Shown: positions 10,492 through 35,123 of the stretch, in pieces
Numbering within the stretch: position 1 is the stretch's first letter
Layout: each line of letters begins with the position of its first letter
Virus record (IMG/VR): IMGVR_UViG_3300042397_002774
Coordinates: 96,927-160,926 of that record
Direction: 5' to 3' (one strand)
DNA: 64,000 nucleotides
DNA from: a virus
Position numbers and translations under genes: made by a program
The notes under the pieces: model-generated
Told to the model about the DNA's origin: nothing
What the model saw: the letters and a program-made list of their open reading frames with translations, nothing else
The model's database searches: none

Positions 10492-10844
10492 TATATTCTA
10501 CCTTGCTTTTCTAAAGCCATTAATTTATCTAAAGCATTCATCGCTCTAAATAATTGATTGTATAATTTACTAATTTCTTTTGCTGTAGCAGCAATATCTG
10601 GATTTGTGGAGAAAGTGAATACATCAAATTCTCTTTTATTTTGAATAATATTTCTTTTAATACCATCAATTTTAGGTAGATTAATTACTTGAGAAGCAGA
10701 CATTTCAGGACGATTTGGATCCTGAGGTAATGGGACTAAAAGTCTTCCTGTTTTGTATAATTCTCTTTTTTGATCGGGAGTTAAGTCTGAAATAGTTACT
10801 TCAGGACTTCCCATAATTTCGTCTAATATATCTGTTAATTTCAT
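10491..10844 (-). CDS. Small protein with MKLTDILDEI leader, neck region
   Basis: 117 residues. It begins MKLTDILDEIMGS, a clear member of the window's leader-peptide group with an LDE tripeptide. The rest is mostly helical and has no recognised domain: PLPQDPNRPEMSASQVI, then a segment ending in a coiled-coil-like KLYNQLFRAMNALDKLMAL. It is translationally packed with its neighbours (2 nt to the upstream gene, 1-nt overlap with the downstream gene). It lies among neck genes, so it may be a connector component or a capsid-targeted small protein. Confidence 0.55.
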   Translation of the reverse strand: MKLTDILDEIMGSPEVTISDLTPDQKRELYKTGRLLVPLPQDPNRPEMSASQVINLPKIDGIKRNIIQNKREFDVFTFSTNPDIAATAKEISKLYNQLFRAMNALDKLMALEKQGRI

Positions 10845-14592: not shown

Positions 14593-16185
14593 TTAAACAG
14601 TTTCTAAACCATGAACGATCACTTTACCATAGAATTCAGGACGAACCATTTTCTTAGCGTAACGAGTCATCAAACCTTTACGTGGAGTAAATGTTGTTGG
14701 ATCGTATACTAATGGAGTCATCATTACAGGGATGTAAGGAGCAAATACAGCACCAGTTTCTAAGAACTGAGCACCTTTATAACCCATCAAGATGATGTTT
14801 TCAGTGAAGTAAGGGTTTTTGTAAACTTTGTAACGGCTGTTTAAAGAACCGATCTTTTGGATACCGAAATTGAATTCAGCTTTATCACCATCACCATCAG
14901 AAGCAAATCCTGGGATTGATTCTAAGATAGTTGCAACAGTTGGAGATACTACTAAGAAGTTAGCACCACCACGTAATGTTAATTGGTGAATCTTGTTAGA
15001 TACTTTTTGTAACTTAGTACCTAAAGTTTGGAACCAACCACCTTGAGTGTTGAAGAAAGTGTTTGTTAAAGAAGCGAAAGCGCTACCGTTCCAAGCTACG
15101 TTGTTCTGAGCTGACCAATATTCAGTAGTTGAAGTTGGTACGTTCTTGATCAACATTTCTAAGATTTCTAAATCGATTTCCATAGAGATGTATTGGCTCA
15201 TCAAGCTAGTTAATTCAGCTTCAGCGTCGATTGAATGGTAAGCATTCAAATCTTGAGCGAATTCTGGAGTCCATTGTGCTTTTAACTTACGAGTTTTAGC
15301 AACAACTGCTTCAGACTTCATGTTAACGTCTAATGAAGGGATAACGATTTGAGAAGCGCTGTTAGCGTTAGGTACGCTGTAGTCAGCTCTGTCTTCGAAA
15401 TCACCACGAGCGTTATCACGGTTAGCTTTATTGTAGAATAAAGTTACAGTACCGTGAGCTGGAGAACCAGTTGCGATGAAGATCATATCATTACCAGATA
15501 CTTTAGTGTACTGAGGTAAGATTGTAGATTCGTCGAAGTTAGAACCACTAACGAAACAAGCTCTTGCAGCTTCTAAATCTTGGTCAGTTTGAGCAGCACC
15601 GTTAGTTACAGTGATTTTCTTTAAAGAACCTGTAGCTACAGTTGAATCGAAGTTAACGTCAGCTAACAATACAGAAGAAGTAGCTGCAGTTAAAGATGCA
15701 GAGAATTGGTTAATTGAATAACCGAATTTACCAACACCATATAAACCTTTAGTGATGTCAGTTGACTTTAAGTCAGCAGAAGCACCATATAAAGATCCAG
15801 CAAATGCTTTCTTATCAGTACCATACTTGAAATCAAGATAGAAGATAAGACCTGAAGGTAAGCTCATTGATTGAACTGAAACGAATTCTTTAGCGCTGAT
15901 ATCACCGAACACACGGCGAACTAACGGTAAAGCAACTCCAGCCCAGTTTTCACCAAAACCACCAGCACCGAAAGTAGCAGCACCACCACCTAAACCAGTT
16001 TGGTTGCTTTCTACTACTAATTGCTTAGCTTGGTTTTCTAATAAGATAGCCATGTTGTTTTTCTCAACTTCGCCTTTAAGACCTTCCAAAAGGCCAGACT
16101 TAGCCCACTTAGAGACTAAGGTGTTAGCTGTATCCATTACACGAGCGTAAGGATTAGCTGATTCTAATAATTGTTGAATTTCCAT
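14593..16185 (-). CDS. Major capsid protein, T4 gp23-like
   Basis: 530 residues, close to T4 gp23 (521). The N-terminal ~60 residues are helical and charged (MEIQQLLESANPY ... KQLVVES), like the gp23 propeptide that the prohead protease removes. A likely cut is after VVE at residue 59, just before the Gly-rich GLGGGAATFGAGGFGENWAG. The rest has the HK97-fold capsid pattern (ALPLVRRVFGDISAKEFVSVQSM; VSPTVATILESIPGF). The start of the propeptide resembles the leader peptides on other proteins in this window. It follows the scaffold gene by 25 nt and precedes a strong terminator, as fits very high expression. Confidence 0.95.
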   Translation of the reverse strand: MEIQQLLESANPYARVMDTANTLVSKWAKSGLLEGLKGEVEKNNMAILLENQAKQLVVESNQTGLGGGAATFGAGGFGENWAGVALPLVRRVFGDISAKEFVSVQSMSLPSGLIFYLDFKYGTDKKAFAGSLYGASADLKSTDITKGLYGVGKFGYSINQFSASLTAATSSVLLADVNFDSTVATGSLKKITVTNGAAQTDQDLEAARACFVSGSNFDESTILPQYTKVSGNDMIFIATGSPAHGTVTLFYNKANRDNARGDFEDRADYSVPNANSASQIVIPSLDVNMKSEAVVAKTRKLKAQWTPEFAQDLNAYHSIDAEAELTSLMSQYISMEIDLEILEMLIKNVPTSTTEYWSAQNNVAWNGSAFASLTNTFFNTQGGWFQTLGTKLQKVSNKIHQLTLRGGANFLVVSPTVATILESIPGFASDGDGDKAEFNFGIQKIGSLNSRYKVYKNPYFTENIILMGYKGAQFLETGAVFAPYIPVMMTPLVYDPTTFTPRKGLMTRYAKKMVRPEFYGKVIVHGLETV

Positions 16186-16210: not shown

Positions 16211-17344
16211 TTAATATTTTGTTATACCTGCTAACTTTTGGAATCTAGAAATTTGTTCGTTTGTTTCAACGATTTGTTTGCTAGGTGCATTGCCAGCTGG
16301 TTTTGAAGCGAATCCTTTAATGATTCCTTCTTTTACCATACCTTTAGAAGTTTCTTTAGCTTCTAGAGACTCATTAAGAGCTTCGAATACTAATTTAGCT
16401 TCGTTTGGTGTTGATGCTTTATCAAAGGCGTTAATTACTTTGATTTTGTTGTCTTCTGATAAGTTTTTAGCTTTGAAGATCTTGTTAACATATAATAACT
16501 TAGCGTTTAATAAGTTAACTTCATTCAATTCGTTACGTAAAGTTTTGATTGTAGCAACTGCTTCATCTAATTCTTTTTCGTCTTTTTTAGCTTTCTTAGC
16601 TTCATCTACTACATCTTCAGTTGCTTCGTTTTCGTCTAAAGCATCTAATTCAGCTAATAGTTCTTCTAAGTTGATTTCATCTTCTGAAGATTCAGTTTCT
16701 TCTTCAGTACCATCTAATTCAACAGCATCATCTCCCATCATTTCTTCTTCATCTTCTGCACCTTCAGCGCCTAATTCAGAATCTACGATGTCTTTGATAA
16801 TGTCTTTTAAATCTTCAATAGATAAATCAGCTACTGATGTTTCTTCTTCAGATGTTTCATCTTCCATTTCTTCTTCAGTTTCTTCTTTACCTTCTCTCAT
16901 ACCAGAAGCGGCTGCGGCTCCTAATTTTTCTAATTCAGCATATGCCTTCTTAGCCATAGGTCCACCCTTCTTAATAAGAGATTTAATACCGTTGATGATG
17001 TTTTCTAAACCAGCACCAGCTGCATTTGATGGATCATATCCACTGCTTGCTCCGGTTACTTCGTCGATTTCTTCATCAGAACCTTCTTCAAGTTCTAATT
17101 CAGCTAAAAACTCGTCTAAATTCAACTCTTCTTCCATGTTTTCTTCATTGAAAGTTTCTACTTCTTCGATTTCTTCTTTAACATCTTCATCATCTTTTGC
17201 CATTTCTTCTAATTTAGAAGCTAACATAGATTGTAAATGAGGAGTTAAAGTTTCTTCAAGAGCAGCTTTTGCATTAACTAACGCAGCTTCGCGAATAGTT
17301 TTTGCTTCAGCAATTGCTTGCTTAAATAATTCTTTGTTTGTCAT
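16211..17344 (-). CDS. Prohead scaffold (core) protein, gp22-like
   Basis: 377 residues, very acidic and rich in Glu, Asp, Ala and Lys, with long predicted coiled coils and many (L/I)xE sites, as expected for the T4 gp22 core protein that the prohead protease digests. Synteny (protease, then this gene, then major capsid) is the T4 order. The C-terminus reads NEQISRFQKLAGITKY. A closely related motif (NEIxRMQQLAGI) occurs in neighbouring head-region proteins, suggesting a shared capsid- or core-binding peptide. A long antisense frame over this gene is a composition artefact. Confidence 0.85.
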   Translation of the reverse strand: MTNKELFKQAIAEAKTIREAALVNAKAALEETLTPHLQSMLASKLEEMAKDDEDVKEEIEEVETFNEENMEEELNLDEFLAELELEEGSDEEIDEVTGASSGYDPSNAAGAGLENIINGIKSLIKKGGPMAKKAYAELEKLGAAAASGMREGKEETEEEMEDETSEEETSVADLSIEDLKDIIKDIVDSELGAEGAEDEEEMMGDDAVELDGTEEETESSEDEINLEELLAELDALDENEATEDVVDEAKKAKKDEKELDEAVATIKTLRNELNEVNLLNAKLLYVNKIFKAKNLSEDNKIKVINAFDKASTPNEAKLVFEALNESLEAKETSKGMVKEGIIKGFASKPAGNAPSKQIVETNEQISRFQKLAGITKY

Positions 17345-17369
17345 TTTGTCCTTAAATTTTTTTCGGAAA

Positions 17370-17393
17370 TAAGCTTATTAGAGGGGAAGCTTA
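17370..17393 (-). promoter_or_regulatory. Stem-loop in the scaffold/capsid mRNA leader
   Basis: On the minus strand TAAGCTT-CCCCTCTAAT-AAGCTTA forms a 7-bp stem with a C-rich loop in the 80-nt leader before the scaffold ATG. AAGGA occurs 4 nt before that ATG. The hairpin could stabilise or regulate this highly expressed mRNA, but HindIII-like palindromes can also occur by chance. Confidence 0.3.
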
Positions 17394-17424
17394 ATAGGGA
17401 TTTGTATAATACCTGAACTACAAT

Positions 17425-17455
17425 AAAAAATGGGTAGTCCATTTTAGGCTACCCA
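17425..17455 (-). terminator. Intrinsic terminator upstream of scaffold/capsid operon
   Basis: On the minus strand TGGGTAG-CCTAAAATGGA-CTACCCA forms a 7-bp stem extended by CC/GG inside, followed by TTTTTTATTG. It ends the transcript of the 503-residue gene (stop at 17491). Confidence 0.8.
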
Positions 17456-17462
17456 TAAATAT
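17455..17462 (-). promoter_or_regulatory. ATATTTAT motif abutting a terminator
   Basis: Minus-strand ACATATATTTATGGG touches the first base of the terminator stem at 17455. It lies 111 nt before the scaffold ATG, farther than the usual spacing. Confidence 0.3.
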
Positions 17463-17490
17463 ATGTAGATACGAAAAACCGTGAAAAGTT

Positions 17491-19002
17491 TTAAGCAGCT
17501 ACTATTTTTTGTGCTAGTTGTATAACTTCTGCTGTTTTAAATGCTGCTGCTCCTCCTTCTAATCCTTTTATAACTAAATTAACGGCATTAGCAGCTTCAA
17601 ATCCTGAGGCTACAGCAGCTGCGGTTAATATAGCGGCATAAACTCCATGAGCGGCATCATATAACGGTGATGTTTGATCAAATGGGTCTTGATTACCAAA
17701 TTTTTTAGGATATGCTTTCTTTAACACATAAGAAATTGCTTCAATATATTTGTGTTCTAAGTCATGCCCCTTTTTTTGCAACCATTGTCCTACTTGTGTT
17801 TGTCCTACAGCTCCATAAGAAAAATAATTAGCAGCTCCATCAACAGCTTTACCAAGTAAATTTATTAAACCTGGAGCACCTGCAGTTAGCGCAAATAATG
17901 TAAGTGGTCCTAGTTCATTTATTTGTCCATCTTTAGGAGATGGTTTTATTGTTGATGCTGCAGATTTAAGATCTCCTAGTATATCTAGTAATCCTTTTTC
18001 AACTCCTTGCCCAACATTAGCTTCTACTTCAGTAATAATACCAGCTAATTGCTGCATTCTTATAATTTCATTGATATTAGATTTCATTTCTTGAATTTTA
18101 ATTTTTGTATTAGAAATACTATTTACTTTTTCTTCTATAGATTTTATAGTTTTATATAGATCTTTTAAAAATTCTTTATAACCTTCGGGGTTATGTTGTT
18201 TTATTTTAGATAAATATTCTAAATATTCTGATAGAGCATAATCTGAGTCGGAAGGTGTTCTTATTATTTGGCTTACAAAGTTAAATATTTTTTGGAAAAA
18301 TTTTCTACTACCTGTTCCATCTATAAATTCTTTTGTTTCAGTACTAATAATTTTAGTTTTACCTGCAAAATATTGTAATATGTTTAACAGTGCTTTTTCA
18401 ATCCTTTTAATATCTCCGGGATTATTTGTAGTATTTAATACTCTATCAGTTCCTGTTATTAAGGATTCAAAAAATTGACCAGTAAATGTTTGAAATTCAG
18501 CCCATGATTTGTAATAAATAGCTTCATCATTAGGATCATAAGCTTGTTTTAAATAATGGTGGTTTAAGGCAGGATCTTTAGCATGTATTAACTCATGTTT
18601 AAGAGTCTGTCTTAACCTTTCAATACCTGTATTTTCATTTCCAGTAACAGTTTTATAAAGTCTTTGATCAAAGTCTTGAAAACTATTAGGTCCCGGAAAA
18701 AATTGTTTAAAATAGGTTTGATTTATAAAAATCCAATTATCTGTTCTATTATTTTTATCATACGTAGAAAATTGACCTTTAGCATTTTTGTCAATAGCAC
18801 CAACACCAATTTCTACTTCTCCTTTTTCACCATCAGAATAGATGTATGATATTTTACCAGCAGACCAAACCTGCCCACTACTAGGAATATTTTTGGTTTT
18901 AATAATCTCAATTATTTCTGGGATTATTGTTTCTAGTTGTTGTCTTTCTTCAGGGGTAAGAGTTAAAGTTCCTTCTTCAATTATGTTTAGTAACTTTATC
19001 AT
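17491..19002 (-). CDS. Metallopeptidase-like / head-targeted protein fusion
   Basis: 503 residues that look like two proteins joined. Residues 1-300 start with the leader MIKLLNIIEEG and contain LKHELIHAKDP (HELIH at 136-140), a zinc-metallopeptidase HExxH motif. Residue Met306 begins MKSNINEIIRMQQLAGI, almost the same as the natural N-terminus of the 225-residue protein at 22691 (MKNQLNEIKRMQQLAGLLNE). The remaining ~180 residues are Ala/Gly-rich with hydrophobic stretches (LTLFALTAGAPGLINLLG; AAILTAAAVASGFEAANAV). It lies between the prohead protease and the scaffold, so it is probably a head component or cargo. The substrate is unknown, and the metal site is inferred from the motif only. 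Confidence 0.6.
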   Translation of the reverse strand: MIKLLNIIEEGTLTLTPEERQQLETIIPEIIEIIKTKNIPSSGQVWSAGKISYIYSDGEKGEVEIGVGAIDKNAKGQFSTYDKNNRTDNWIFINQTYFKQFFPGPNSFQDFDQRLYKTVTGNENTGIERLRQTLKHELIHAKDPALNHHYLKQAYDPNDEAIYYKSWAEFQTFTGQFFESLITGTDRVLNTTNNPGDIKRIEKALLNILQYFAGKTKIISTETKEFIDGTGSRKFFQKIFNFVSQIIRTPSDSDYALSEYLEYLSKIKQHNPEGYKEFLKDLYKTIKSIEEKVNSISNTKIKIQEMKSNINEIIRMQQLAGIITEVEANVGQGVEKGLLDILGDLKSAASTIKPSPKDGQINELGPLTLFALTAGAPGLINLLGKAVDGAANYFSYGAVGQTQVGQWLQKKGHDLEHKYIEAISYVLKKAYPKKFGNQDPFDQTSPLYDAAHGVYAAILTAAAVASGFEAANAVNLVIKGLEGGAAAFKTAEVIQLAQKIVAA

Positions 19003-19006
19003 AATA

Positions 19007-19615
19007 TTAGCATAAAGGACAAACTCCTGTTGCGTTACAAATAATTTCTGTAATTAATCCGTTTACTTTGCTATAGTCTTTACTAGATTGTACTTTTTTA
19101 CCTTCAGATAATGACATATAAGCACCCGGAGTTGATGGTACTGATACTAGATCCCAACATAATAATTCAAAATCGTCTTGTACCTCTACTGTTTCACCCA
19201 ATTGCTTAACACTACCCATACCACGAGATGAAATACCTAATGGAATGCCGGCTAGTACAATTTCTTGTGCAATTTTACCTGATGGTGTGTTTAATAATTC
19301 TAATTCACCCATTACATCATTACCTTCCCACCAAACCTTAGTGATTATATGAGAAACGTTATTTAAGTTAATAATTGATGATTCTGGGTGGTCTAATTCA
19401 CCTGTTGCTGTTCTAGTAGCTACAGGTCCTTTAGTATACATTTCTACTTGTTTTCTAAGAATATTCATAGGATAAACACGACCATTACCGTTTTTAACTT
19501 CGGCTTCTTGTAATTTACCTTTGATACGCATTCTAGTACCAGTTCCTTCTTTACCTTCAGATAAAGTAAGTTTAGCTACGTGGAATGGTGTATGATCTAC
19601 TAATAGTTGTTTCAT
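19007..19615 (-). CDS. Prohead core protease, gp21-like
   Basis: 202 residues, similar in length to T4 gp21 (212). The fold features of the S78 prohead protease family are present: GRVYPMNILRKQVE near residue 46, the His of GELDHPES (H76), and the catalytic Ser in GIPLGISSRGMG (S129/S130). This protease matures the prohead by cleaving the scaffold, capsid propeptide and internal proteins after short (L/I)xE-type sites. It is placed directly before the fusion gene, scaffold and capsid. The C-terminus ends with an unusual Cys pair (GVCPLC). Confidence 0.92.
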   Translation of the reverse strand: MKQLLVDHTPFHVAKLTLSEGKEGTGTRMRIKGKLQEAEVKNGNGRVYPMNILRKQVEMYTKGPVATRTATGELDHPESSIINLNNVSHIITKVWWEGNDVMGELELLNTPSGKIAQEIVLAGIPLGISSRGMGSVKQLGETVEVQDDFELLCWDLVSVPSTPGAYMSLSEGKKVQSSKDYSKVNGLITEIICNATGVCPLC

Positions 19616-19617
19616 GT

Positions 19618-20718
19618 TTATTTACTATTTTCTTCTGCTAGTACTTCACGTACAATATTTTCTAATGTTGCTTTAAATTTATCAAAAGCAGCACCTACAT
19701 CTACTTTACCAATTGGTCTTAATGGGGTTAAAATATATGCGGTTGTTGGTAATCTGTCATCATGTTCTTCTACATCCTCTTCAACATTAAATTGTAATTT
19801 GAATTTTTCTAAAAGAGTTGATGGTAATTTTTCCCAATAACCATATCTTAATACGGCTCTATCACTATGTCTACCAATATTTTGTAAAATAAATTTATTT
19901 GAGTATGGATTTAGAGTATTATTCATCTCAATAAATTTTGCTGCTTGTTTAACAGTGTCATTTGGTTCTTCACCAGGAAACATATTTAATTTAGTTTCTT
20001 GAAGATTTTTTACAAATTCTTTACCTACATAATAGCTATCACCTTTTACTCTAATATAACCACCTTGAATAATTGGATTTTTTTCAATTCTTGCAGTTCC
20101 ATATTCTTTTTCACGTGGAGTTCTTGAACCAGCACCACTTTGTCTATATCTAGAATTAGGAATAATCACATAATCAATTTCAAAATATTCAGGAGTGTTG
20201 TCAATTACTTTAAATTCAATTGAAGATCCAGTATCACCCATATTTTGTCCAGTACCACCATATACTTTGTTAGCCCAGTCTAAATTTTCTTTAACAACCT
20301 TCATACCATTTTCTTTATCAACTAATTCACCTTTCTTTGGTGCTTTAGGAGATTTAGATTTAGCTTTTGCTTTTGGTCTTTCTTGATGAGAATCAATACC
20401 AGATAATTTTAATTGGCTATAATATGATGGATTTTCTTTTAAATGATCCATAGCAATTTTTTCTGCTTTTTTAGGATCATCTGTATGTTCCATTTCAACT
20501 TTAATACCCATTGCTAATTCAACAGGATTACATTGATATTCTTCTTTAGCTTCAGATAAAAGACCTTTGTTTTTTAAAATTTTAACTGAATCAGTAAATG
20601 ATGTTACATTAGTAATGTATTGGGGAAATGTCATACGAACAGCTCTCATAAAGTTAGCCTGAGATAAATTTCCTTCTACTAATTGGTTGTATTGATTTTG
20701 TATACTTTTCATATTCAT
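19618..20718 (-). CDS. Head-region protein with DUF5661-like domain
   Basis: 366 residues. The N-terminal ~55 residues (NQLVEGNLSQANFMRAVR ... FTDSVKILKNKGLLSE) form a helical module. Then comes VELAMGIKVEMEHTDDPKKA ... IAMDHLKENPSYYSQL, which resembles the small DUF5661 family (from memory). A basic linker (RPKAKAKSKSPKAPKKGE) leads to a mixed alpha/beta C-terminal half with no recognised fold. The C-terminus is helical (FKATLENIVREVLAEENSK), similar to the leader peptides found at other N-termini here. It lies between portal and protease and is probably a virion or prohead protein. Confidence 0.55.
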   Translation of the reverse strand: MNMKSIQNQYNQLVEGNLSQANFMRAVRMTFPQYITNVTSFTDSVKILKNKGLLSEAKEEYQCNPVELAMGIKVEMEHTDDPKKAEKIAMDHLKENPSYYSQLKLSGIDSHQERPKAKAKSKSPKAPKKGELVDKENGMKVVKENLDWANKVYGGTGQNMGDTGSSIEFKVIDNTPEYFEIDYVIIPNSRYRQSGAGSRTPREKEYGTARIEKNPIIQGGYIRVKGDSYYVGKEFVKNLQETKLNMFPGEEPNDTVKQAAKFIEMNNTLNPYSNKFILQNIGRHSDRAVLRYGYWEKLPSTLLEKFKLQFNVEEDVEEHDDRLPTTAYILTPLRPIGKVDVGAAFDKFKATLENIVREVLAEENSK

Positions 20719-20725
20719 TTATATT

Positions 20726-20854
20726 TTATCGGCCTTGTCCTCTATATTTTTTAGGTTTTTGTTCTGTTGGGCCATAAGATTTTTTTGCTTTTCCGCTTAT
20801 CTTTTTACCAAATGAAACCTTTTGAGAAGAAGATGATGATTTTGTTTTTGCCAT
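20726..20854 (-). CDS. 42-residue basic protein, head region
   Basis: A small gene whose ATG at 20854 overlaps the upstream stop as TAATG. The product has a Ser run (MAKTKSSSSSQKVSFGKK), a Lys/Ser middle and the C-terminus PKKYRGQGR. About a third of the residues are Lys or Arg. It fills almost the entire gap between two tightly packed head genes, which supports it being real. A small, very basic protein here could be an internal head protein that neutralises DNA, or a minor assembly factor; neither is shown. Confidence 0.7.
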   Translation of the reverse strand: MAKTKSSSSSQKVSFGKKISGKAKKSYGPTEQKPKKYRGQGR

Positions 20855-22014
20855 TATTGGTTCAAGTTTTTAATTTTATTATTAAGTTGATTAACCATTT
20901 CTGAAATATTAGCAACATTCTTTTGGGTTGCTTTCCAATATCTAATTCCATCTTCTCCTTCACTTAATTCTTGTTTCATACGAGATGTATATTCAACAAT
21001 ACGATCAATTTCTTGTAATTTACGCTTTACTTCACGAATTGCTTTATGCAATTGTTCAGATTTAGTTCTATATGTTACTTCTTTTTTGAATTTACCATAG
21101 GACACTTCATTAAGTACTCCTTGTTCAATAATATCGTTTAATTTCATTTCGTATATTTTTTTATAATCAAACATTTTTGAGTTTTTTGGTAGTGTTAAAT
21201 CTGCTACTGTCCAACCCATTTTCTTTAAAAATTTTACTGCTCTGTTCTCACCTTTCTTTCCAAAGGCTTTTGGTGTAGCATAATTTTCACCTGATCCTGC
21301 ACTGAAAGAAGCACCACTACCAGTTACATTTTCCTCGTTCATCATTATTTCACGAGCATATGCTTTGATAGCAGATTTTAATGCTGCTCTTTTTTCTTCA
21401 TCTAATCCTTCTCTTCTTATTAAATTAAATCTTTGTGTAAAAAGTTTAGAATCATAAAGAAATTTTTCAATACTTGATTTCATTACTTCATACAACATTT
21501 CAACTCCTTTAATAATAGGTTGTATCCATCCTACAAAAGCATTAAAACTAGCTAATTTAGTAATTAAAGTTTGTAATCCATTTTCAGATAAATAAGAAAC
21601 TATAAAATTTTTAATAGCATCCGGAGCTAATCCTGACATTTTGTCTATTACATGTTTGGCAATGGCACCAATTCCAACAGATGCTAGAAATTTTTGCCAT
21701 CCAGTAAGATCAGTAATTTTAGTTACTACATTATTGATAGAGGCAACTAAATTGTTTAATCCTAATTTATTTAAAAAATCTATTAAACGTTTTAAAGTAT
21801 TTCGTTTGAAATTATACCAAACATCATCTGAAAAACGTTGTAGTATTGTTGGGTTTGACATTACCTGCCCTATGACAGCAGCTGCATCTTTCCAATCATT
21901 AATTTTATTAATTACATCATCATACTTTTCTCGAGCATATGCTTTCACACTATCCAAGAATGCTTCTTGTAATAGTTGTTCTTGCAAAAGTTTATTTTCT
22001 ATGCTCAATTCCAT
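20854..22014 (-). CDS. Helical head-region protein
   Basis: 386 residues, mostly helical. The N-terminus (MELSIENKLLQEQLLQEAFL) contains repeated LQE tripeptides like prohead-protease sites. Residues 30-210 hold amphipathic and hydrophobic helices (WQKFLASVGIGAIAKHVID). Then comes a Gly/Ser patch (VTGSGASFSAGSGENYATPK, AFGKKGENRAVKFLKKMGW), followed by a long charged coiled coil to the end. A motif like GSGASFxxGxGExYATPxAF seems to recur in head-region proteins of marine phages (from memory). It is coupled by a TAATG overlap to its upstream neighbour, and I infer an internal or prohead protein. Confidence 0.5.
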   Translation of the reverse strand: MELSIENKLLQEQLLQEAFLDSVKAYAREKYDDVINKINDWKDAAAVIGQVMSNPTILQRFSDDVWYNFKRNTLKRLIDFLNKLGLNNLVASINNVVTKITDLTGWQKFLASVGIGAIAKHVIDKMSGLAPDAIKNFIVSYLSENGLQTLITKLASFNAFVGWIQPIIKGVEMLYEVMKSSIEKFLYDSKLFTQRFNLIRREGLDEEKRAALKSAIKAYAREIMMNEENVTGSGASFSAGSGENYATPKAFGKKGENRAVKFLKKMGWTVADLTLPKNSKMFDYKKIYEMKLNDIIEQGVLNEVSYGKFKKEVTYRTKSEQLHKAIREVKRKLQEIDRIVEYTSRMKQELSEGEDGIRYWKATQKNVANISEMVNQLNNKIKNLNQ

Positions 22015-22691
22015 TATTTATAGCCTAACTTAGTTAATACTTGTTCAACTTGGCTTCTAACAGCAGATTTACTAATTTTACCTGGCTCAAACCCTAAAGA
22101 TTGAAACCAAACTTCAAAAGCTCCTGGAAATTCCTGAATGCTGTTGATGTTTTTAGATTTATTAGCTACAGTAGTTGCTGATGCTTGAGCTCTACCTAAA
22201 GCAGCAACATCACTAGGTGTATTGGTTGCTGGGGCTTCATTTAAATTTTTCTCTAATTCATCAACTAGTTGATATACTATTGATTGTTGAGCTACAAGAT
22301 ATCCTGCGTTAGCTTCAACTTCTTTACCATATCCTCTATAAACACTTCCTTCTTGTCTAGCTATAATACATTTTAACCCATCAGGTTTTATGCTTATAGT
22401 ACTTTGTGTAAAATTATCATCCTTTGTATTTACTCCTTTTGATAATCCACTATTTCTGTTACCAGCAAATTCTTTAGCTAATTTATGTAATTCTTTTGCT
22501 TCTTCAACTGATATAGTTAATTGATTGTCTTTAAAACCCCCACCTAATACACTTAAAGTAATTTGTGTGTTTCCTTCTTTACTGGTGTCTTTTTGTATAT
22601 CTAAAGTATCTACAGCTTCTTCTAACTGCGATTCATTAAGTAATCCAGCTAATTGCTGCATTCTTTTAATTTCGTTAAGTTGATTTTTCAT
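22014..22691 (-). CDS. Head-region protein with N-terminal MQQLAG motif
   Basis: 225 residues. The N-terminus MKNQLNEIKRMQQLAGLLNE carries the motif shared with the scaffold C-terminus and the middle of the 503-residue fusion. The central part is a small alpha/beta domain (GNTQITLSVLGGGFKDNQLT ... STISIKPDGLKCIIARQ). An Ala/Thr-rich linker leads to a C-terminal helical domain (FPGAFEVWFQSLGFEPGKIS ... VEQVLTKLGYK). No enzyme motif is seen. It is 1 nt from the upstream gene and overlaps the downstream gene. A head-assembly or packaged role is inferred from the motif and position. Confidence 0.5.
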   Translation of the reverse strand: MKNQLNEIKRMQQLAGLLNESQLEEAVDTLDIQKDTSKEGNTQITLSVLGGGFKDNQLTISVEEAKELHKLAKEFAGNRNSGLSKGVNTKDDNFTQSTISIKPDGLKCIIARQEGSVYRGYGKEVEANAGYLVAQQSIVYQLVDELEKNLNEAPATNTPSDVAALGRAQASATTVANKSKNINSIQEFPGAFEVWFQSLGFEPGKISKSAVRSQVEQVLTKLGYK

Positions 22692-22692
22692 A

Positions 22693-23547
22693 TTATTTAA
22701 CAGATTTTAATTCGGCTACTAATTGATGATAAGTCAATAATGTAATTATATCATCATCTTTTACACTTTGGTTTTTATCTAGAGGTTTAATTAAATTAAC
22801 TACTTCATTAATTTTAATTTTAATAGTATTATCTTCAACTTTTTCAACTAATTTAATTAATTGTTTTTTAATACCATCTATATTGTTGTTAACAAAATCT
22901 TTTAATTTTGTAGTACTAGATACGTTATTAATAAATTCTTTCAATACTAATTTTTGATCTGCTGTTAAATCACCGTACTTCTCATTGAATTTTTCAATAA
23001 GCATTTTATAAGCTAAAATACGAGTGCTCTTATCCATTGCACTATATTCTTCCATTACACGATCTTTAACTTCTTCTTTATTTACTTCTTTACGAGTAAT
23101 ATGTTCAAGTAAAGTTACTTTATTATCAATAACATTAGATGGATCTACAAATTCTAATGTAGAATAAGCTTCCATTAATGTATAAACAGCAGCATGTTGT
23201 TTGTAATTGTTTACTTTAGCTTTAAAGAATTCTTCTAAATTATAATGTTGCTTAATTTCTTTAATTAAGTTATATTTTTCTTTACGAAGAGCAGTGCGAT
23301 TTAGACGTGAATGGATTTCTAAAGTAGTATTGATTAATGATTCAGCTTTACCTTCAGAAATGGTTTTATTAGCTGTTAAGGTTTGATATAATTTATATTC
23401 CTTAGCTAATTCAGATTTGCTAAAATACTTTTTAATTAAAGGCAAAGATGCAGAATCTTTACCAGAAATAGTATCGGATGTTACTTGTCTCAATAAGAGT
23501 TCAAATAAAATTCCAGTATTTTTGTATTTGTTATGTTTTATTTTCAT
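22693..23547 (-). CDS. Conserved helical protein after portal (unknown)
   Basis: 284 residues, almost all predicted helix and rich in Lys, Glu, Asn and Leu, with no metal-binding or catalytic motif. The N-terminus is basic (MKIKHNKYKNTGILFELLLR). It follows the portal gene with a 31-nt gap that holds an ATATTTAT motif. In T4-like phages the genes between portal and prohead protease (gp67, gp68) encode small core proteins. This one is much larger but sits in the same place, so a prohead-core role is possible. I do not recognise the family. Confidence 0.45.
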   Translation of the reverse strand: MKIKHNKYKNTGILFELLLRQVTSDTISGKDSASLPLIKKYFSKSELAKEYKLYQTLTANKTISEGKAESLINTTLEIHSRLNRTALRKEKYNLIKEIKQHYNLEEFFKAKVNNYKQHAAVYTLMEAYSTLEFVDPSNVIDNKVTLLEHITRKEVNKEEVKDRVMEEYSAMDKSTRILAYKMLIEKFNEKYGDLTADQKLVLKEFINNVSSTTKLKDFVNNNIDGIKKQLIKLVEKVEDNTIKIKINEVVNLIKPLDKNQSVKDDDIITLLTYHQLVAELKSVK

Positions 23548-23569
23548 AAAAAGTATATAATCATTGCGT

Positions 23570-23577
23570 ATAAATAT
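23570..23577 (-). promoter_or_regulatory. ATATTTAT motif (putative late promoter)
   Basis: Minus-strand AACATATTTATACGC in the portal/284-residue gene gap, 23 nt before the ATG at 23547. Confidence 0.5.
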
Positions 23578-23578
23578 G

Positions 23579-25441
23579 TTATTTTTCTATACCCTTGATG
23601 TTATCTTCATTTAATAAATTAGATTCTACAGGTTTTGTACTTTCGTATAATGTTACTTTTTTCAATTCAGCAGCTTCTTTTGCTCTTTTTAATTCAGCCA
23701 ATGCTAATGGTGAACCACCCTTATATGCTGTTTGCATTGGGTTTTTATCTTGGGTAGCAGTCATGTTGTATTCCTTACTACCAATTGGATCTTTACCAAA
23801 TGAGCTTTTCTGAGTGCCAAATATAGATGCTTTTTGTGTTGGTCTACCAACTGGATCTTTTTCATCATATCCTACTGGTACTGCTCCGTTACCGCTTCTA
23901 CCTTTACCATATAGTGAAGCTAAATCATGTGGTGTACCAAATGATCTACCTGTTTTAGCTGGATCATTGCCTTCATTTTCAACTTGTTGAAGTCTAAATG
24001 CACGTTTTTTATCCTCTAATACTAAATCACGATATTCATCTACTTGATCATCACTGAATTGGAATATTCTATCGTATATAAAATCTGATGGGATAATACC
24101 TGTATCAATAGCATCTTTAGCTAATGATACTTTTTCTTTCCACAATGCGATTTGTTCTTGTTGATATATAATAGATGGTGGTGTTAAAGATAATTCAAAG
24201 CTTGTTAATGAATCACCATCAAATCCTTGTGTATATAAATGTACTAATGCAATTTTGTATAACTCAGATACAAGTACCTTTTGTATACGTTCAATTGTAC
24301 GAGCAAATCTAATATCTTCAGCAGCTAATGTTGCTTTACCAGTTAAGTCTTTTTCAAATCCAAAGAATGCTTTAGGTACCTTAAGGGCAGCTAACATTTC
24401 ATCACGTAAGAAGTTTACATCCTCAATACCATTATATTCTAAACCTTTTAAGGTATCAATTTTGGTATTTTGGTTTGCACCTCTAACAGGAATAATAAAA
24501 TCTTCAAGTGAGTTTTGGATATTAAAACGTAAGTTGTATTCACCTGTTTGAGCATCCATGAATGGAGTCTTCTTCATTTTATTGGTGATACGCTCCATGT
24601 AGTTATCAACTTCATGTGCTGGTATTCCACCAACGTCTACGTAGAAGATACGTTTTTCTGGAGATCTCATAATACGATGAATTAACATCGCATCTTTCAT
24701 TAATGTATATTGCTTATAAACCTTACGAGCTGGTTCAATAAATGAACGTCCATAAGGTAAATAGTTAGCATCAGCATATAATCTAAAATGTGCTACTTCA
24801 TAATTCTCAAAACGCTTTTTCATGTTACTCTTATCCATATGGATAGTACTTGCTAATGCGTTTGGATCGTATTCGTAATAAACCTCAAATGGGTTTTCAG
24901 GATTTAAACCTTCTCTTCTAGCTAATTCATATGAAGATAAAGGCATAACATTATATACACCTACCTCACTATTAATTTCTAGGAATAAATAAAAATCTCC
25001 GTACTTACACATCTGACGTGTCCAAGGCCAAAGATTAAATTCTATGTTTAAGATATCGTAAAATAAATTGTAAAGTACTCTTTGTACTTTTTCATCTGAA
25101 GAACGAATTTGTAATACTTCTCCAGCTTCATTCTTTAATGTAGTTTCATCAGCAACAATGTCAAGAGCAGAAGCAATAATTGATTCTGAATCCATTGCTT
25201 CGTAATCATTATATAATTGTGTTCTTAATGTCTGATAGTTAATAGCAGGATTGAACATAGCAGACATGCTAGTTCTGTGTAGACGTGTAAAACGGTCTAC
25301 CAAGCTATTTGTTTGTGCACTTCCATAAGCTTGAGTGCGGTCGGTATCAACCACTTTTAATTGGCTTCCACCAACGTTTCTTACGATAACGTCAGTTGAA
25401 AACAATCTTCTCAGCCTTGAAAATAAATCTGTATTAGCCAT
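23579..25441 (-). CDS. Portal vertex protein, gp20-like
   Basis: 620 residues (T4 gp20 is 524). Portal-type features are clear: YNDYEAMDSESIIASALDI near residue 75, YEVAHFRLYADANYLPYGRS, MRSPEKRIFYVDVGGIPAHE, and FLRDEMLAALKVPKAFFGFE. The C-terminal ~110 residues are Lys/Gly/Pro-rich and low in complexity and probably extend past the usual core. The protein forms the dodecameric ring at the capsid vertex through which DNA is packed. It directly follows the large terminase in the same order as in T4-like phages. Confidence 0.93.
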   Translation of the reverse strand: MANTDLFSRLRRLFSTDVIVRNVGGSQLKVVDTDRTQAYGSAQTNSLVDRFTRLHRTSMSAMFNPAINYQTLRTQLYNDYEAMDSESIIASALDIVADETTLKNEAGEVLQIRSSDEKVQRVLYNLFYDILNIEFNLWPWTRQMCKYGDFYLFLEINSEVGVYNVMPLSSYELARREGLNPENPFEVYYEYDPNALASTIHMDKSNMKKRFENYEVAHFRLYADANYLPYGRSFIEPARKVYKQYTLMKDAMLIHRIMRSPEKRIFYVDVGGIPAHEVDNYMERITNKMKKTPFMDAQTGEYNLRFNIQNSLEDFIIPVRGANQNTKIDTLKGLEYNGIEDVNFLRDEMLAALKVPKAFFGFEKDLTGKATLAAEDIRFARTIERIQKVLVSELYKIALVHLYTQGFDGDSLTSFELSLTPPSIIYQQEQIALWKEKVSLAKDAIDTGIIPSDFIYDRIFQFSDDQVDEYRDLVLEDKKRAFRLQQVENEGNDPAKTGRSFGTPHDLASLYGKGRSGNGAVPVGYDEKDPVGRPTQKASIFGTQKSSFGKDPIGSKEYNMTATQDKNPMQTAYKGGSPLALAELKRAKEAAELKKVTLYESTKPVESNLLNEDNIKGIEK

Positions 25442-25465
25442 TTTTTTATTTTAGTATGTATAACA

Positions 25466-25473
25466 ATAAATAT
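25466..25473 (-). promoter_or_regulatory. ATATTTAT motif (putative late promoter)
   Basis: Minus-strand AGAATATTTATTGTT in the 33-nt gap between terminase and portal, 25 nt before the portal ATG. Confidence 0.5.
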
Positions 25474-25474
25474 T

Positions 25475-27052
25475 CTAACCCAATAACCATCGTATATCTT
25501 CTGCATTTCCGTGGGCATCATCTATTTTGTATGGATTACCTCCAGGTATCCATTGCCCACCTCCATACTGCTGATCTCCAGTTTTCCTAAAGTTTAATAA
25601 ACTTGCAGTTGCTAGATCACGACCTATTTGCGCAAATCTGGATGCTGTATCTCTAATAAAGAGACCCATTGATAATGACAATACTAAGTCATCATTATAT
25701 CCGTTTTGTGCTTGCCCCTTACCATGCATCCAAATAAACACTCTTAATTCCTCAAGTAAGCGCTTTGAATGAAAGGTAAATGACTTATCTCGAAGGTACG
25801 ACTCCATCTTTGAGATAACAAGTGGTCTTGTCTTTGCTGATGTAGTAAATCCAGGAACTGTTTGCCCTGAGTCTAATTTTGATAGATATTTGTCAGCACT
25901 TAATTCACCATATGAGCGAGGTGAATAGTATAAATTTGCGTACTCGCGGTCTATAATAGTATTTACGACATCCCAACCGATATTAGCATTTTCCACTACT
26001 AAAAGCGCATTATTATATTCAGTAGCCACCGATACTAACATATTTCCGTACTCACGTGTGCCTATTTGGGATTTAAACTCAGCTACTTGCTGACATGCTT
26101 CTAAATCAATGACTTGGAATGCAGAATAGTCACTTCCATCTCCACGGGCAACGTCGGCTGATACAATGTAGTTTTTATTATAATCAGGATATTGCCAAAT
26201 CCAAAAATCACCTCCCATGAAACGACGTTCAACAGGATCCATTATAAATCCTTCATAATATTCTAATGTTTCTGGGTCAATTACTGTTGCACCTGAGCCT
26301 AAGAAGTCACAATCATATTCCTGCGCAAAATCTCTTGCAGTCATATTTTCTTTTTCATTCTTAACCCAAGCACTATCTCTATCAGGGTGAACATCCCATT
26401 TTAATTGGATAGGAACAAAACTATTTTTACTTAATTCTGCTTCAACCCAGGTTTTGTGGAACCAATTACCTACACCATTTGGTGAAGATAATGCTACGCA
26501 ACCACCACCTGTTGAGATTGTAGGTTTAATTGCGGTATATATTTTATCAATACCCTCAATAAACGCAGCCTCATCCATAATCAACCAAGATACTGCAAAC
26601 GAACGACCAGCATCACTAGAAGCAGAGGTCGCTTTAATAAACGAACCATTTGATAGTTTTAATGATGTTTGGTTTGATGCTACTGGTTTAGAGCCTTTTA
26701 ACCATGAAGGTAAGTTATTGTACATGAATTGAACCTTTTCAACCATGTTTTGTGCTGTTAGTTGCTTAGTTGCAATACATAATATTGCTTTATCTTTATG
26801 GAATAACATTAACCATAAAGCATAACCGGCACATAAAGTAGAGATACCTAACTGACGAGATTTATTAATAATATTGTAGTCGTTTGCTCTAAAGGATTTT
26901 AATACATCTTCCTGAAAAGGATATAGATGAAATAAAATTCTACCTTTAATTGGATGGGTAATGAAACAATATTTTCTAAAGAAATGGACAGGATCAGAAG
27001 CACATTTGATGTATTCCTGTTTAATTATGTCCTTTATATTTTGATCGCTCAT
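25475..27052 (-). CDS. Terminase large subunit, gp17-like
   Basis: 525 residues, slightly shorter than T4 gp17 (610). The ATPase domain has the Walker A-like SRQLGIST (65-72), Walker B WLIMDE (156-161) and a coupling motif around ALSSPNGVGN. The nuclease domain begins at YIVSADVARGDGSDYSAF (Asp300) and ends with NGYNDDLVLSLSMG, giving the acidic residues expected of the RNase H-like fold. The enzyme drives DNA into the prohead through the portal and cuts concatemers. No small terminase is visible in the window. A terminator and an ATATTTAT motif lie just upstream, so the packaging/head operon appears to start here. Confidence 0.95.
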   Translation of the reverse strand: MSDQNIKDIIKQEYIKCASDPVHFFRKYCFITHPIKGRILFHLYPFQEDVLKSFRANDYNIINKSRQLGISTLCAGYALWLMLFHKDKAILCIATKQLTAQNMVEKVQFMYNNLPSWLKGSKPVASNQTSLKLSNGSFIKATSASSDAGRSFAVSWLIMDEAAFIEGIDKIYTAIKPTISTGGGCVALSSPNGVGNWFHKTWVEAELSKNSFVPIQLKWDVHPDRDSAWVKNEKENMTARDFAQEYDCDFLGSGATVIDPETLEYYEGFIMDPVERRFMGGDFWIWQYPDYNKNYIVSADVARGDGSDYSAFQVIDLEACQQVAEFKSQIGTREYGNMLVSVATEYNNALLVVENANIGWDVVNTIIDREYANLYYSPRSYGELSADKYLSKLDSGQTVPGFTTSAKTRPLVISKMESYLRDKSFTFHSKRLLEELRVFIWMHGKGQAQNGYNDDLVLSLSMGLFIRDTASRFAQIGRDLATASLLNFRKTGDQQYGGGQWIPGGNPYKIDDAHGNAEDIRWLLG

Positions 27053-27068
27053 ATACTAATTGTTGTAT

Positions 27069-27076
27069 ATAAATAT
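27069..27076 (-). promoter_or_regulatory. ATATTTAT motif before terminase
   Basis: Minus-strand TATATATTTATATAC, 9 nt after the terminator stem and 17 nt before the terminase ATG. This is a clean terminator-then-promoter junction. Confidence 0.55.
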
Positions 27077-27078
27077 AT

Positions 27079-27105
27079 AAAAGAAACCCCAACTTATGTT
27101 GGGGT
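27079..27105 (-). terminator. Intrinsic terminator before terminase
   Basis: On the minus strand ACCCCAAC-ATAA-GTTGGGGT is a perfect 8-bp stem with a 4-nt loop, followed by TTCTTTTATAT. Confidence 0.9.
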
Positions 27106-27136
27106 CAGTCCTACAATACTATTATAGGAGGGGCAC

Positions 27137-27832
27137 TTATTTAACTAACATTAGATAACCTAAACCTCCAATCACTATATAACTTCCTATACGTTGGAAT
27201 TTAGATTTTGCTTTTAATTTCTTTAATTGCAAGTCTATTTGGTTATATTGATCTTCCCAACCTGCAATTTCCTTATCTTTATTTGTTAAAATCAACTTAT
27301 ATTTACTTTCTTTATTTTCAAATCCAGTAATAATATTGTCTTTAACAGTTATTTTTGCTTCCAATGTAGTAATAGTACTATCTTTTAATACGATAATTTG
27401 TTTAGTACCATCTAATTCTACTAAATCTTTAGCAGCAGCAACTAATACTGGTTGTGCTAAAGGTAATGGGTTAGTTATTGTATCTTTAGGGTAACGAGTA
27501 TTAAATGAACTGATTAATTCATGTTCTGTAAAAGTATCAACTTTGCTTTTTTCTACTTCAATAGTTTCAACAATCCTAATTACTTTTGCTTTTTGGTGTT
27601 CTACCTTATATGTTAATTCTTCACTAACATAATTTAATGAGTCAATAACAGCATCATCTTTTTTAATTTCAGCAAATAATGAATCATTTACTTTATGTAA
27701 ACTATCCATTTCAACTAAAAATGCTTTATGATCAGCATTACTACTACATTTTTCAAACAATACACTACCTATTGCTATAATAGCTACTACTATAACAATT
27801 TTTGGCAACCATTTTTTAACTAATAACATCAT
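27137..27832 (-). CDS. Membrane-anchored coiled-coil protein (spanin-like?)
   Basis: 231 residues from the ATG at 27832. A longer frame to 27886 would overlap the upstream gene by 50 nt, so I reject it. It has an N-terminal membrane segment after a basic stretch (MMLLVKKWLPKIVIVVAIIA), a long charged coiled coil of about 170 residues, and a C-terminal hydrophobic segment (IGSYIVIGGLGYLMLVK). This layout of two membrane anchors joined by an envelope-spanning coil resembles single-protein spanins or a lysis/superinfection protein. I see no convincing lipobox, so the spanin idea is only a suggestion. The gene ends in a strong terminator. Confidence 0.5.
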   Translation of the reverse strand: MMLLVKKWLPKIVIVVAIIAIGSVLFEKCSSNADHKAFLVEMDSLHKVNDSLFAEIKKDDAVIDSLNYVSEELTYKVEHQKAKVIRIVETIEVEKSKVDTFTEHELISSFNTRYPKDTITNPLPLAQPVLVAAAKDLVELDGTKQIIVLKDSTITTLEAKITVKDNIITGFENKESKYKLILTNKDKEIAGWEDQYNQIDLQLKKLKAKSKFQRIGSYIVIGGLGYLMLVK

Positions 27833-27836
27833 ATTT

Positions 27837-28982
27837 TTATTTTTTGATACCTGCATAATACTGCATTCTGTGTTTAATACCTTCATTCAAATCATCCATT
27901 TCATCTTCGTCCTCAAGTGGATTTTCGATTGGTGGTGGAGCAATATATTCTTTGCCTGCTTTTTTAGCAATATCTTTTTGTAAATATTCTGATTTAGCAA
28001 CTAAAGCATCAATTCTCTGTTCTAGACTTGCTTTTAAATCAGTTAAACCTTTAATTTCTCTAGCTGTACTACCTACGTCATTAATATCACCAGGTGTGCT
28101 TCTATATCTTTTAGTTTTTAATAGATTTGATTTAACACTTCTTAAACGATCAGATAATTTTGAATATTCCATCCAATCTTGATAATCTTCATCTGAAATG
28201 GTAACTGCTGATTTTGATCTGCTACCACCTGTCATTTCAGGTTCTGGTTCTTCTCCTGAAGCTTTAGCTGCTGCGAATGCTGCTTCTACTTCATCATCTG
28301 ACATTTCTTCTTGGCCTGATATTCCTAATGAATCTAATTCACGTGATGTAAACATACTACCAGCTCCTGCTCTTCTACCTCTTGGATTGTAATATAATTC
28401 TTCATCACCAGTCGCTGTTGTAGATGCTGTTGGAGTAGGTCTTGGGTTTGTTAATCTTGGTGCTGCTTGTTCTGATGAAGAAACAATAACACCTGCATCA
28501 ACTAATTCCATAAAATCTTTATTGATTGGATTTTGTTTATCATAACCCATTTCACCAGCTACGTTCATTTTTGATACTGCTGATCCTGCTGCTTGAATAG
28601 CTGCTAAAATTTTAGCTTTTTTACCAGAAAATCCTGCAATTTGTGCATCAGTAACATCGTCTGCTAATTGATATCTAACACCAACATTTGCCATTTCGTC
28701 TAATTCTGTTGAAGACATACCTGGTTTTGATAGTTTGGTAAGTTTTAATTGTGCTGCTTGTATATTTTTATTAACAGCATTTATTTCAGCATCTTTTCCT
28801 GGTTTATCTACTGGAGCTACTTGTTGAGCAGTTAATTCTTGTTTTTTCTTATTAAGTGCTGCTATTTTAGCTCTTTCGGCAGCTAATGCTGCATTTTGTG
28901 CTTGTTTATCCTCAGCAGGACCTTCTTCAATTACTTCAAGTAATGCTTCACGGATAATATCTTGCAGTTCAGATTTTTTCAT
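27837..28982 (-). CDS. Putative capsid-targeted protein, two head motifs
   Basis: 381 residues from the ATG at 28982, which aligns the leader MKKSELQDIIREALLEVIEE with others in the window. An ATG at 28997 would add five residues. The body is Ala/Glu/Lys-rich: a coiled coil (AALAAERAKIAALNKKKQEL), a small winged-helix-like region (YQLADDVTDAQIAGFSGKKA), Pro/Thr linkers, and another coiled coil. The C-terminus LNEGIKHRMQYYAGIKK is a variant of the MQQLAG motif at the scaffold C-terminus. It therefore carries both proposed head signals. Cargo or a core protein are the likely roles; no enzyme motif is seen. Confidence 0.5.
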   Translation of the reverse strand: MKKSELQDIIREALLEVIEEGPAEDKQAQNAALAAERAKIAALNKKKQELTAQQVAPVDKPGKDAEINAVNKNIQAAQLKLTKLSKPGMSSTELDEMANVGVRYQLADDVTDAQIAGFSGKKAKILAAIQAAGSAVSKMNVAGEMGYDKQNPINKDFMELVDAGVIVSSSEQAAPRLTNPRPTPTASTTATGDEELYYNPRGRRAGAGSMFTSRELDSLGISGQEEMSDDEVEAAFAAAKASGEEPEPEMTGGSRSKSAVTISDEDYQDWMEYSKLSDRLRSVKSNLLKTKRYRSTPGDINDVGSTAREIKGLTDLKASLEQRIDALVAKSEYLQKDIAKKAGKEYIAPPPIENPLEDEDEMDDLNEGIKHRMQYYAGIKK

Positions 28983-29009
28983 GGTATCGTTATTCATAAT
29001 TTTATATGT

Positions 29010-33644: not shown

Positions 33645-34076
33645 TTATTTCATTGATTGTTTTGTAGCAGTTGCGTACATAACTTTTTCAGCGTCTTTGC
33701 CATATTTGTCAAAGCCATCTGATTTTTTCATTGCTTTAACATTTTTTTCTTTTTTAGCTTTTTCGCTTTTAGTCATCTTACGCTCTTTAACTGGTTTATC
33801 CATTGCTTTTAATTGTTCTTCAAGCTCTTTTTTCTTAGCTTCAAGTTCAGCAATGCTGTTATCCATATCATCCATCAAATCACCAATAATTTCTGTATCA
33901 ACATATTGATTAATATTTGTTGGAATAGCAGATTTAATATCGCTAGCTTCTTTGATATCTTCTTCGATTTTAGCAATTTTTGCACTAATTGCTGCTTTAT
34001 CACCAGCCTCATCGATCATTCTTAAACGTTCTCCGATAGCTTCTTTAATAATTTGGCGTAATTGATTAGTATTCAT
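33645..34076 (-). CDS. Leader-bearing coiled-coil protein
   Basis: 143 residues. The N-terminus [20 protein letters not shown] is a class-II leader (xLxxIIxEAI). The middle is an acidic coiled coil ([20 protein letters not shown]). The C-terminus is Lys-rich ([20 protein letters not shown]) and ends in [20 protein letters not shown]. The charge is strongly split between acidic and basic halves, as in DNA-associated internal proteins. No enzyme motif is seen. Confidence 0.5.
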
Positions 34077-34106: not shown

Positions 34107-35123
34107 TTAGTCTAAATCTTGTAATCCGGTATCATCTTTTGTTAAATCACGAGCAATATCTCTTATTTCCATTTCAGCCCAGCGTTTTTGAGAAGATGTT
34201 AATGTACCGTTGATTGCATTTTCAACAAACGGAAAAAATTCATTATCAGATAATTTATAAACAGATGCAAAAAACAGTTCACGAACACGTGGATCATCCA
34301 CATCCGATGAAATATATAAATCATTAATAGCATCATATATAAATTTACCATAACGTAAATCTTCAGGTTCATTTGAAACCTTATCTACAGCATTAATAAT
34401 TGATTGATTTTTTTCTTTATCTGATCCGAATCCTTCTGTACCTACGATTTCATATAATCCTTTTATAATTTCATGAACTAACATAGGAAAACACATTGCT
34501 TGTGCTTTAATTATAAATTGATCATTTTCATCATCGTATTCCATTTCACTTTCACCACCCTGCATTTTAGCACCTTGTGCAATTGCTGCTAACATCATTG
34601 CAATAGCATTATCATCATCATAAGTACCAAATACTAATTTTAATATTTCACTATATTTGCTTACTAATTCTGGATTGATTTGGTCAATGTATTCTTTGAA
34701 TAACATAAATGCAAAAGCTCCTCTAACAGATGCTCCTTGAGTAATACCGTTAATAAGACGACGTTTTGCTTTCATCTTTTCAGGATCATCTTCACCAAAA
34801 TCAGGTTGTGAAGGATCTTCATTGTTAGGATTCATCTCAATATCCATATCATTACCTATACTAGCAATAATTTTAATATTAGCATAGTCAATAATTGGAT
34901 AAGCATCAGTAACCATTTGGATAGCTATTGCCTCTAATTCATCTCTATATCCTTCTTCAGCAGCTATAATTTGGTCTAATACTTCTTTAGAGCGCATCAT
35001 TGTTTGCATTAATGGTCTATTACCAACCATTTGGCGCAATGATTCACCAGACTTACCTTTCAAAGCAGACATGGTGTTAGGTGAAAATATTTTGTCGTAT
35101 TCTACTTCTAATAATTTTGCCAT
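34107..35123 (-). CDS. Conserved helical protein of unknown function
   Basis: 338 residues, mostly helical and acidic. It has a distinctive N-terminus (MAKLLEVEYDKIFSPNTMSA) and a central Met/Ala-rich stretch (NAIAMMLAAIAQGAKMQGG). No catalytic motif is obvious. It is joined to the upstream 83-residue gene by a TAATG overlap. It resembles hypothetical proteins I associate with marine T4-like phages, but I cannot assign a role. Confidence 0.45.
   Translation of the reverse strand: MAKLLEVEYDKIFSPNTMSALKGKSGESLRQMVGNRPLMQTMMRSKEVLDQIIAAEEGYRDELEAIAIQMVTDAYPIIDYANIKIIASIGNDMDIEMNPNNEDPSQPDFGEDDPEKMKAKRRLINGITQGASVRGAFAFMLFKEYIDQINPELVSKYSEILKLVFGTYDDDNAIAMMLAAIAQGAKMQGGESEMEYDDENDQFIIKAQAMCFPMLVHEIIKGLYEIVGTEGFGSDKEKNQSIINAVDKVSNEPEDLRYGKFIYDAINDLYISSDVDDPRVRELFFASVYKLSDNEFFPFVENAINGTLTSSQKRWAEMEIRDIARDLTKDDTGLQDLD

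Follow-up and report, generated by a model that had tools for sequence, protein, structure and literature searches.

Why does the scaffold of a T4-like phage end in a short peptide that recurs in neighbouring proteins with otherwise unrelated sequences? The question bears on how T4-type heads select their internal proteins, which a review from 2023 describes as mysterious (PMC9958956). The window analysed here covers the final 64 kb of a phage record of 160.9 kb; its minus strand holds a T4-type head module that includes terminase, portal, 284-aa, 225-aa, 386-/366-aa, protease, fusion, scaffold and capsid genes (Table 1). By capsid protein identity, the cultured relatives are Flavobacterium phage immuto (58%) and Microcystis phage Mel-JY01 (49%), with Rhodothermus phage RM378 more distant (37%). 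The phages bearing the motif are a large, mostly uncultured T4-like group. The scaffold has no match in Pfam or PHROG; it takes its name from its place in the module and from its homology to the head module annotated in immuto.

Motif copies in the genome

The motif RMQxLAG(I/L) is present in four copies in the 160.9-kb genome, every one of them within the head module. A six-frame scan of the window recovered all four peptides as quoted in the first-pass annotation, which had also seen no other similarity among the proteins sharing the motif; the tagged bodies indeed form separate BLAST clusters. The scan, made with the pattern R[MFILV]Qx[LYFM]AG, revealed no copy in the window beyond the four, and ORFs elsewhere in the genome (97 kb), searched with a slightly wider pattern, added none that was credible. 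The 381-aa protein is counted from the ATG at 28982; as listed, its ORF begins at an upstream TTG and has 401 aa.

Table 1. Head-module genes, motif copies and adjoining peptides in the window
Feature	Position	Strand	Basis or remark
Major capsid protein (gp23 family)	14593..16185	-	PF07068 E 5.5e-75
Scaffold (T4 gp22-position core protein), 377 aa	16211..17344	-	Gene directly upstream of capsid gene; motif at end
Scaffold C-terminal peptide NEQISRFQKLAGITKY	16214..16261	-	
Scaffold copy RFQKLAG	16226-16246	-	Scaffold C-terminus
Predicted protease site IVE	16265..16273	-	Between scaffold body and motif
503-aa fusion	17491..19002	-	N-half (HELIH motif) and tagged C-half
Fusion internal tag MKSNINEIIRMQQLAGIITE	18028..18087	-	Own ATG; predicted cut after IITE
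Fusion copy RMQQLAG	18040-18060	-	Middle of 503-aa protein
Prohead protease, Peptidase_S77 (T4 gp21 family)	19007..19615	-	PF03420 E 2.2e-31; phrog_207 head maturation protease E 4e-54
225-aa tagged protein	22014..22691	-	
225-aa protein N-terminal tag MKNQLNEIKRMQQLAGLLNE	22632..22691	-	Predicted cut after LLNE
225-aa protein copy RMQQLAG	22644-22664	-	N-terminus
Portal protein (gp20 family)	23579..25441	-	PF07230 E 2.7e-63
Terminase	25475-27052	-	Position and homology to annotated immuto head module, without family match
381-aa protein, C-terminal motif	27837..28982	-	45/47 homologues keep C-terminal motif
381-aa protein C-terminal peptide GIKHRMQYYAGIKK	27840..27881	-	Preceded by LNE (27882-27890)
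381-aa protein copy RMQYYAG	27849-27869	-	C-terminus

Conservation of the motif in related phages

In 1,690 ORFs (462,721 residues) drawn from this genome, 80 related IMG/VR contigs and four reference phages, a loosened motif was observed 174 times, where shuffling predicts 1.6. About 66 copies were N-terminal (0.24 expected) and 102 C-terminal (0.06 expected). Many of these ORFs are homologous and their counts are not independent; the key tests were therefore redone with one sequence per family, and these family-level tests are the ones to trust. Nearly all copies fall in three settings, namely the C-terminus of the scaffold, the C-terminus of the 381-aa protein and the N-terminus of other proteins.

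The motif, about the last 10 residues of the scaffold, forms the end of all 74 complete scaffolds, including those of Mel-JY01 and the uncultured phage LR756508, and the RM378 protein adjoining the capsid gene ends in a similar, looser RIKRLAGL. Homologues of the 381-aa protein keep it at the C-terminus in 45 of 47 cases (40 by pattern, plus five pattern misses ending in RFQKLAN), the other two being without it. The consensus of the C-terminal copies is R[MFW]QxLA[GN]I. The first-pass annotation had proposed a motif search across related genomes, with homologues lacking the motif as the outcome that would speak against it; scaffolds and 381-aa homologues instead keep the motif, and in the cargo it is the bodies that are gained and lost, with the tag persisting. 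On one contig (L368, positions 1-2676 of IMGVR_UViG_3300008267_000265), the scaffold frame runs without a stop from RWQVLAG into the capsid-protein N-terminus, which is either a natural fusion or an assembly gap.

The N-terminal tag reads M-K-x-Q-[I/L]-N-E-[I/A]-K-R-M-Q-Q-L-A-G-[I/L]-[I/L]-x-E and heads proteins of 82 families without other detectable similarity (153 bodies gave 86 BLAST clusters, from which three untagged fusion segments and one chance match were subtracted); since distant relatives can fall into different clusters at E 1e-3, the figure of 82 stands at the upper end for the unrelated families sampled. The consensus is confined to the first 20 residues in an alignment of 85 tagged proteins. 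When DNA is aligned with one sequence per family, conservation is strong between the ATG and codon 20 (Glu) and then drops; an A-rich stretch lies upstream of the ATG. These some 80 families are nearly all unannotated: the 85 proteins matched three families in Pfam, four in PHROGs and two in PADLOC, each through a single member. Two or three tagged genes are adjacent on some contigs, and strict-pattern copies number from 0 to 4 per long contig, with none for a reversed control pattern. Two results count against the functional reading preferred below: many scaffold-bearing contigs have no tagged gene within the covered sequence, and the tag consensus, searched against 50,697 phage records, matched Immutovirus only. 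A text search of the literature for RMQQLAG returned no match.

Protease sites adjoining the motif

The pattern [ILVM]xE ends at most five residues after the motif in 75 of the 82 tag families (shuffled mean 5.8, maximum 15 in 1000), and it lies at most nine residues before the motif in 73 of 74 distinct C-terminal copies (12.9 when shuffled). At the C-terminal copies the site is IVE in most scaffolds and LNE or LDE in many 381-aa homologues. Since [I/L/V]xE adjoins the motif in each arrangement, the motif is separable from the body by cutting. A codon scan for RMQQLAG in the viral contigs found 81 in-frame copies, 76 with the site and 72 N-terminal by a simple rule that several others missed only through an earlier ORF-caller start. 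In bacterial genomes, none of 19 in-frame copies was N-terminal and none had the site, the two scan patterns differing slightly in that the viral one demanded a Lys before the Arg. [I/L/V]xE is a short and common pattern, which also counts against the preferred reading.

With nearly every copy split from its body by [I/L/V]xE, the peptide looks like a removable propeptide and, functionally, a capsid-targeting sequence. The first-pass annotation had taken it for a docking peptide common to scaffold and cargo; the shared peptide stands (74/74 scaffolds, 82 families), but its role does not look like docking only, and the protease sites had been missed.

The presence of [I/L/V]xE beside every class of copy would also suit a motif that recruits the S77 protease and marks substrates for cleavage, with no part in packaging. 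We regard this as unlikely. Near residue 60 of the capsid protein, [VI]xE and then A or S are conserved in the five N-termini examined (VVE/S here), which makes a plausible candidate propeptide site for the S77 protease; these N-termini are without the motif, and the protease thus probably acts independently of it. Moreover, T4 gp21 cuts after the short L/I-x-E signal, and the residues of the T4 IPIII peptide that serve targeting are not those that serve processing (PMC9026906).

DNA-level conservation and origin of the tag

Synonymous sites of the tag are conserved beyond codon usage, with AAC at 77/92 (31% background) and CAG at 74/92 (14% background). Codons 1-20 of tagged genes stand out for this synonymous conservation (AAC, CAG, GCT), which suggests spread as a DNA module. 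The C-termini of the scaffold and the 381-aa protein use different codons (CAA, GCA). Thus, the tags are probably copies of each other that arose through duplication or recombination, and their likeness to the scaffold end is one of protein sequence, of ancient or of convergent origin. We infer that the scaffold copy is older than the tag: the scaffold motif reaches Mel-JY01 and, loosely, RM378, whereas the tag consensus matched immuto alone.

The same synonymous conservation could mark the tag as a relic of a recent 5'-end duplication or as a nucleotide-level element, for example a translation start region, with no function as a protein. However, the same peptide is written in other codons at the C-termini of the scaffold and the 381-aa protein, where a start-region role is impossible, the strong conservation stops at the Glu of the protease site, and the tag is conserved more than the body in 94 of 108 homologous pairs. 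This explanation is therefore highly improbable.

Proposed role and binding partner

The presence of the tag on some 80 unrelated small proteins suggests a removable head-packing label that matches the scaffold's own end. The motif is probably a C-terminal binding peptide of the scaffold that has been reused as a removable capsid-targeting sequence. Building on the motif, its positions and conservation, the adjoining cleavage consensus, the protease gene and the unrelatedness of the bodies, we propose a course of binding, incorporation, cutting and ejection. During prohead assembly, the end of each scaffold molecule, a short helix R-[M/F/W/L]-Q-x-L-A-G-[I/L], would bind the nascent head at a site that recurs in it. 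The likeliest place for this site is the capsid protein, on its inner face or its N-terminal arm; the core is the alternative. Unrelated small proteins with the peptide in their first ~20 residues would be recruited to the head via this same site. The S77 prohead protease would then cut the [I/L/V]xE sites adjoining the motif copies, stripping the anchor from the scaffold and the 381-aa protein, splitting the 503-aa protein into two mature proteins and releasing the cargo bodies within the capsid, from which they might be ejected with the DNA.

We infer that docking is to the capsid shell or the core. A site on the capsid protein is favoured by analogy with phage 80alpha, in which the 16 C-terminal residues of the scaffold form a helix-and-hook bound to the capsid protein; the satellite protein CpmB of SaPI1 takes this capsid site with the same C-terminal peptide (PMC5644958). 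In a model of the homologue from contig L017, the scaffold C-terminus is a short helix (H332-340) after a disordered, low-confidence linker. A structure model of the scaffold and capsid read-through from the same contig (TAA read as Gln, 16 paired rows) was unusable, with a pLDDT of 40 and an unfolded capsid part.

The core is a real rival as partner. In this variant of the explanation, the peptide binds not the capsid protein but the scaffold or core (or the portal), and tagged cargo assembles together with the core. T4 internal proteins co-purify with gp22, their targeting sequences have been described as having affinity for the core, and their co-assembly with it has been proposed (PMC9026906). 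The scaffold-end peptide here, however, sits behind a disordered linker like the 80alpha end that touches the capsid protein, a resemblance that is not decisive; we consider core binding possible, and the less probable of the two.

Phage by phage, scaffold and tag motifs showed no covariation at the variable positions (LAN/LAN p=0.55, W/W p=0.31), which counts against the scaffold-end targeting reading. An apparent association of LAN between scaffold and 381-aa protein (7,0,0,17) was dropped because the pattern had omitted the K-type ends of the 381-aa protein.

More tentatively, the lineage as a whole may practise open cargo loading, in which any protein gaining the scaffold-end peptide and a protease site would be co-packaged, freed and injected, the tag DNA would spread as a module, and some cargo would be polyproteins cut in the head. 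A targeting peptide that matches a defined scaffold end gives a concrete binding site to seek, and the motif makes it simple to screen genomes for proteins that may be packaged, of which some 80 families have emerged. It may also be of use as a small tag, transferable between proteins, that brings them into phage heads.

Comparison with known systems

In function, the peptide is like the propeptides of T4 IPI, IPII and IPIII, 10-19-residue N-terminal capsid-targeting sequences of internal proteins that are removed by gp21 (PMC9026906). As in T4, a short N-terminal peptide (here ~20 residues, in 82 families) is shared by unrelated small proteins, it has a gp21-type L/I-x-E end (75/82 families), and the phage encodes an S77 protease together with a gp20/gp23-type head. 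The likeness does not extend to sequence, as the tag has no notable ungapped match to the T4 IPIII targeting peptide. The peptide here matches the scaffold C-terminus, whereas the T4 IPIII peptide has no clear match in gp22; some 80 body families carry it, and internal and C-terminal copies exist as well.

With 80alpha and SaPI1 the phages share a scaffold-end peptide that also occurs in a second protein, both using one site in 80alpha/SaPI1, and a short C-terminal helix behind a flexible region, found here in two proteins (in the scaffold by model, in the 381-aa protein by sequence only). The RIIK sequence of 80alpha/SaPI1 does not occur in the C-terminal consensus of these phages, the host is another one, and capsid binding has been solved in 80alpha/SaPI1 and is proposed here. 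Removable N-terminal cargo tags are not described for 80alpha/SaPI1 (PMC5644958). An N-terminal stretch of P1 DarB likewise suffices to deliver a reporter to the head, but identity of this signal with a scaffold peptide is not reported, and a separate scaffold has not been identified in P1 (PMC9024508). In phiKZ and SPN3US, ejection proteins have N-terminal propeptides with redundant sites that are cut off by the prohead protease and are thought to target inner proteins; these are mostly longer than 100 residues, and neither PMC5694885 nor PMC7411985 reports a short motif that they share with a scaffold.

Modular proteins and other N-terminal patterns

The 503-aa fusion consists of a ~304-aa HELIH segment, the internal tag, which has an ATG of its own (18087), and the C-half. 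The C-half is a separate gene with an N-terminal tag in contigs L050, L068 and L362, and has a longer relative in L024; a cut after IITE would yield two mature proteins. The HELIH motif of the N-half (18088-19002) is zinc-protease-like; this half has no family match, and a homologue was found elsewhere only in the near-identical L001.

Other proteins are modular too. One in L080 (9439-10506) has two internal tags, and a small protein in L012 (7101-7382), with a tag of its own, corresponds to the last ~73 residues of the 225-aa protein. A 521-aa protein in L099 (7480-9045) and L171 (3285-4850) has an internal copy of LDEIKRMQQLAGIKE at residue 346.

A second N-terminal class, MIKLxDILxE or MKLTDILDE, is present in the window at 10491-10844, 17491-19002 and 41964-42800. 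It has an [I/L]xE end after ~10 residues and occurs in 52 ORFs, many of them homologous, where shuffling predicts 1.4. This class, whose layout is closer to that of T4, may also be a targeting sequence. We do not claim that any one body has exchanged one tag class for the other, the search pattern being too loose and the sole candidate weak (E 0.005). A third N-terminal pattern (MKKSELQDIIREALLEV-like) occurs at 27840-28982, in the 381-aa protein, and at 33645-34076, 35123-35374 and 61628-61984.
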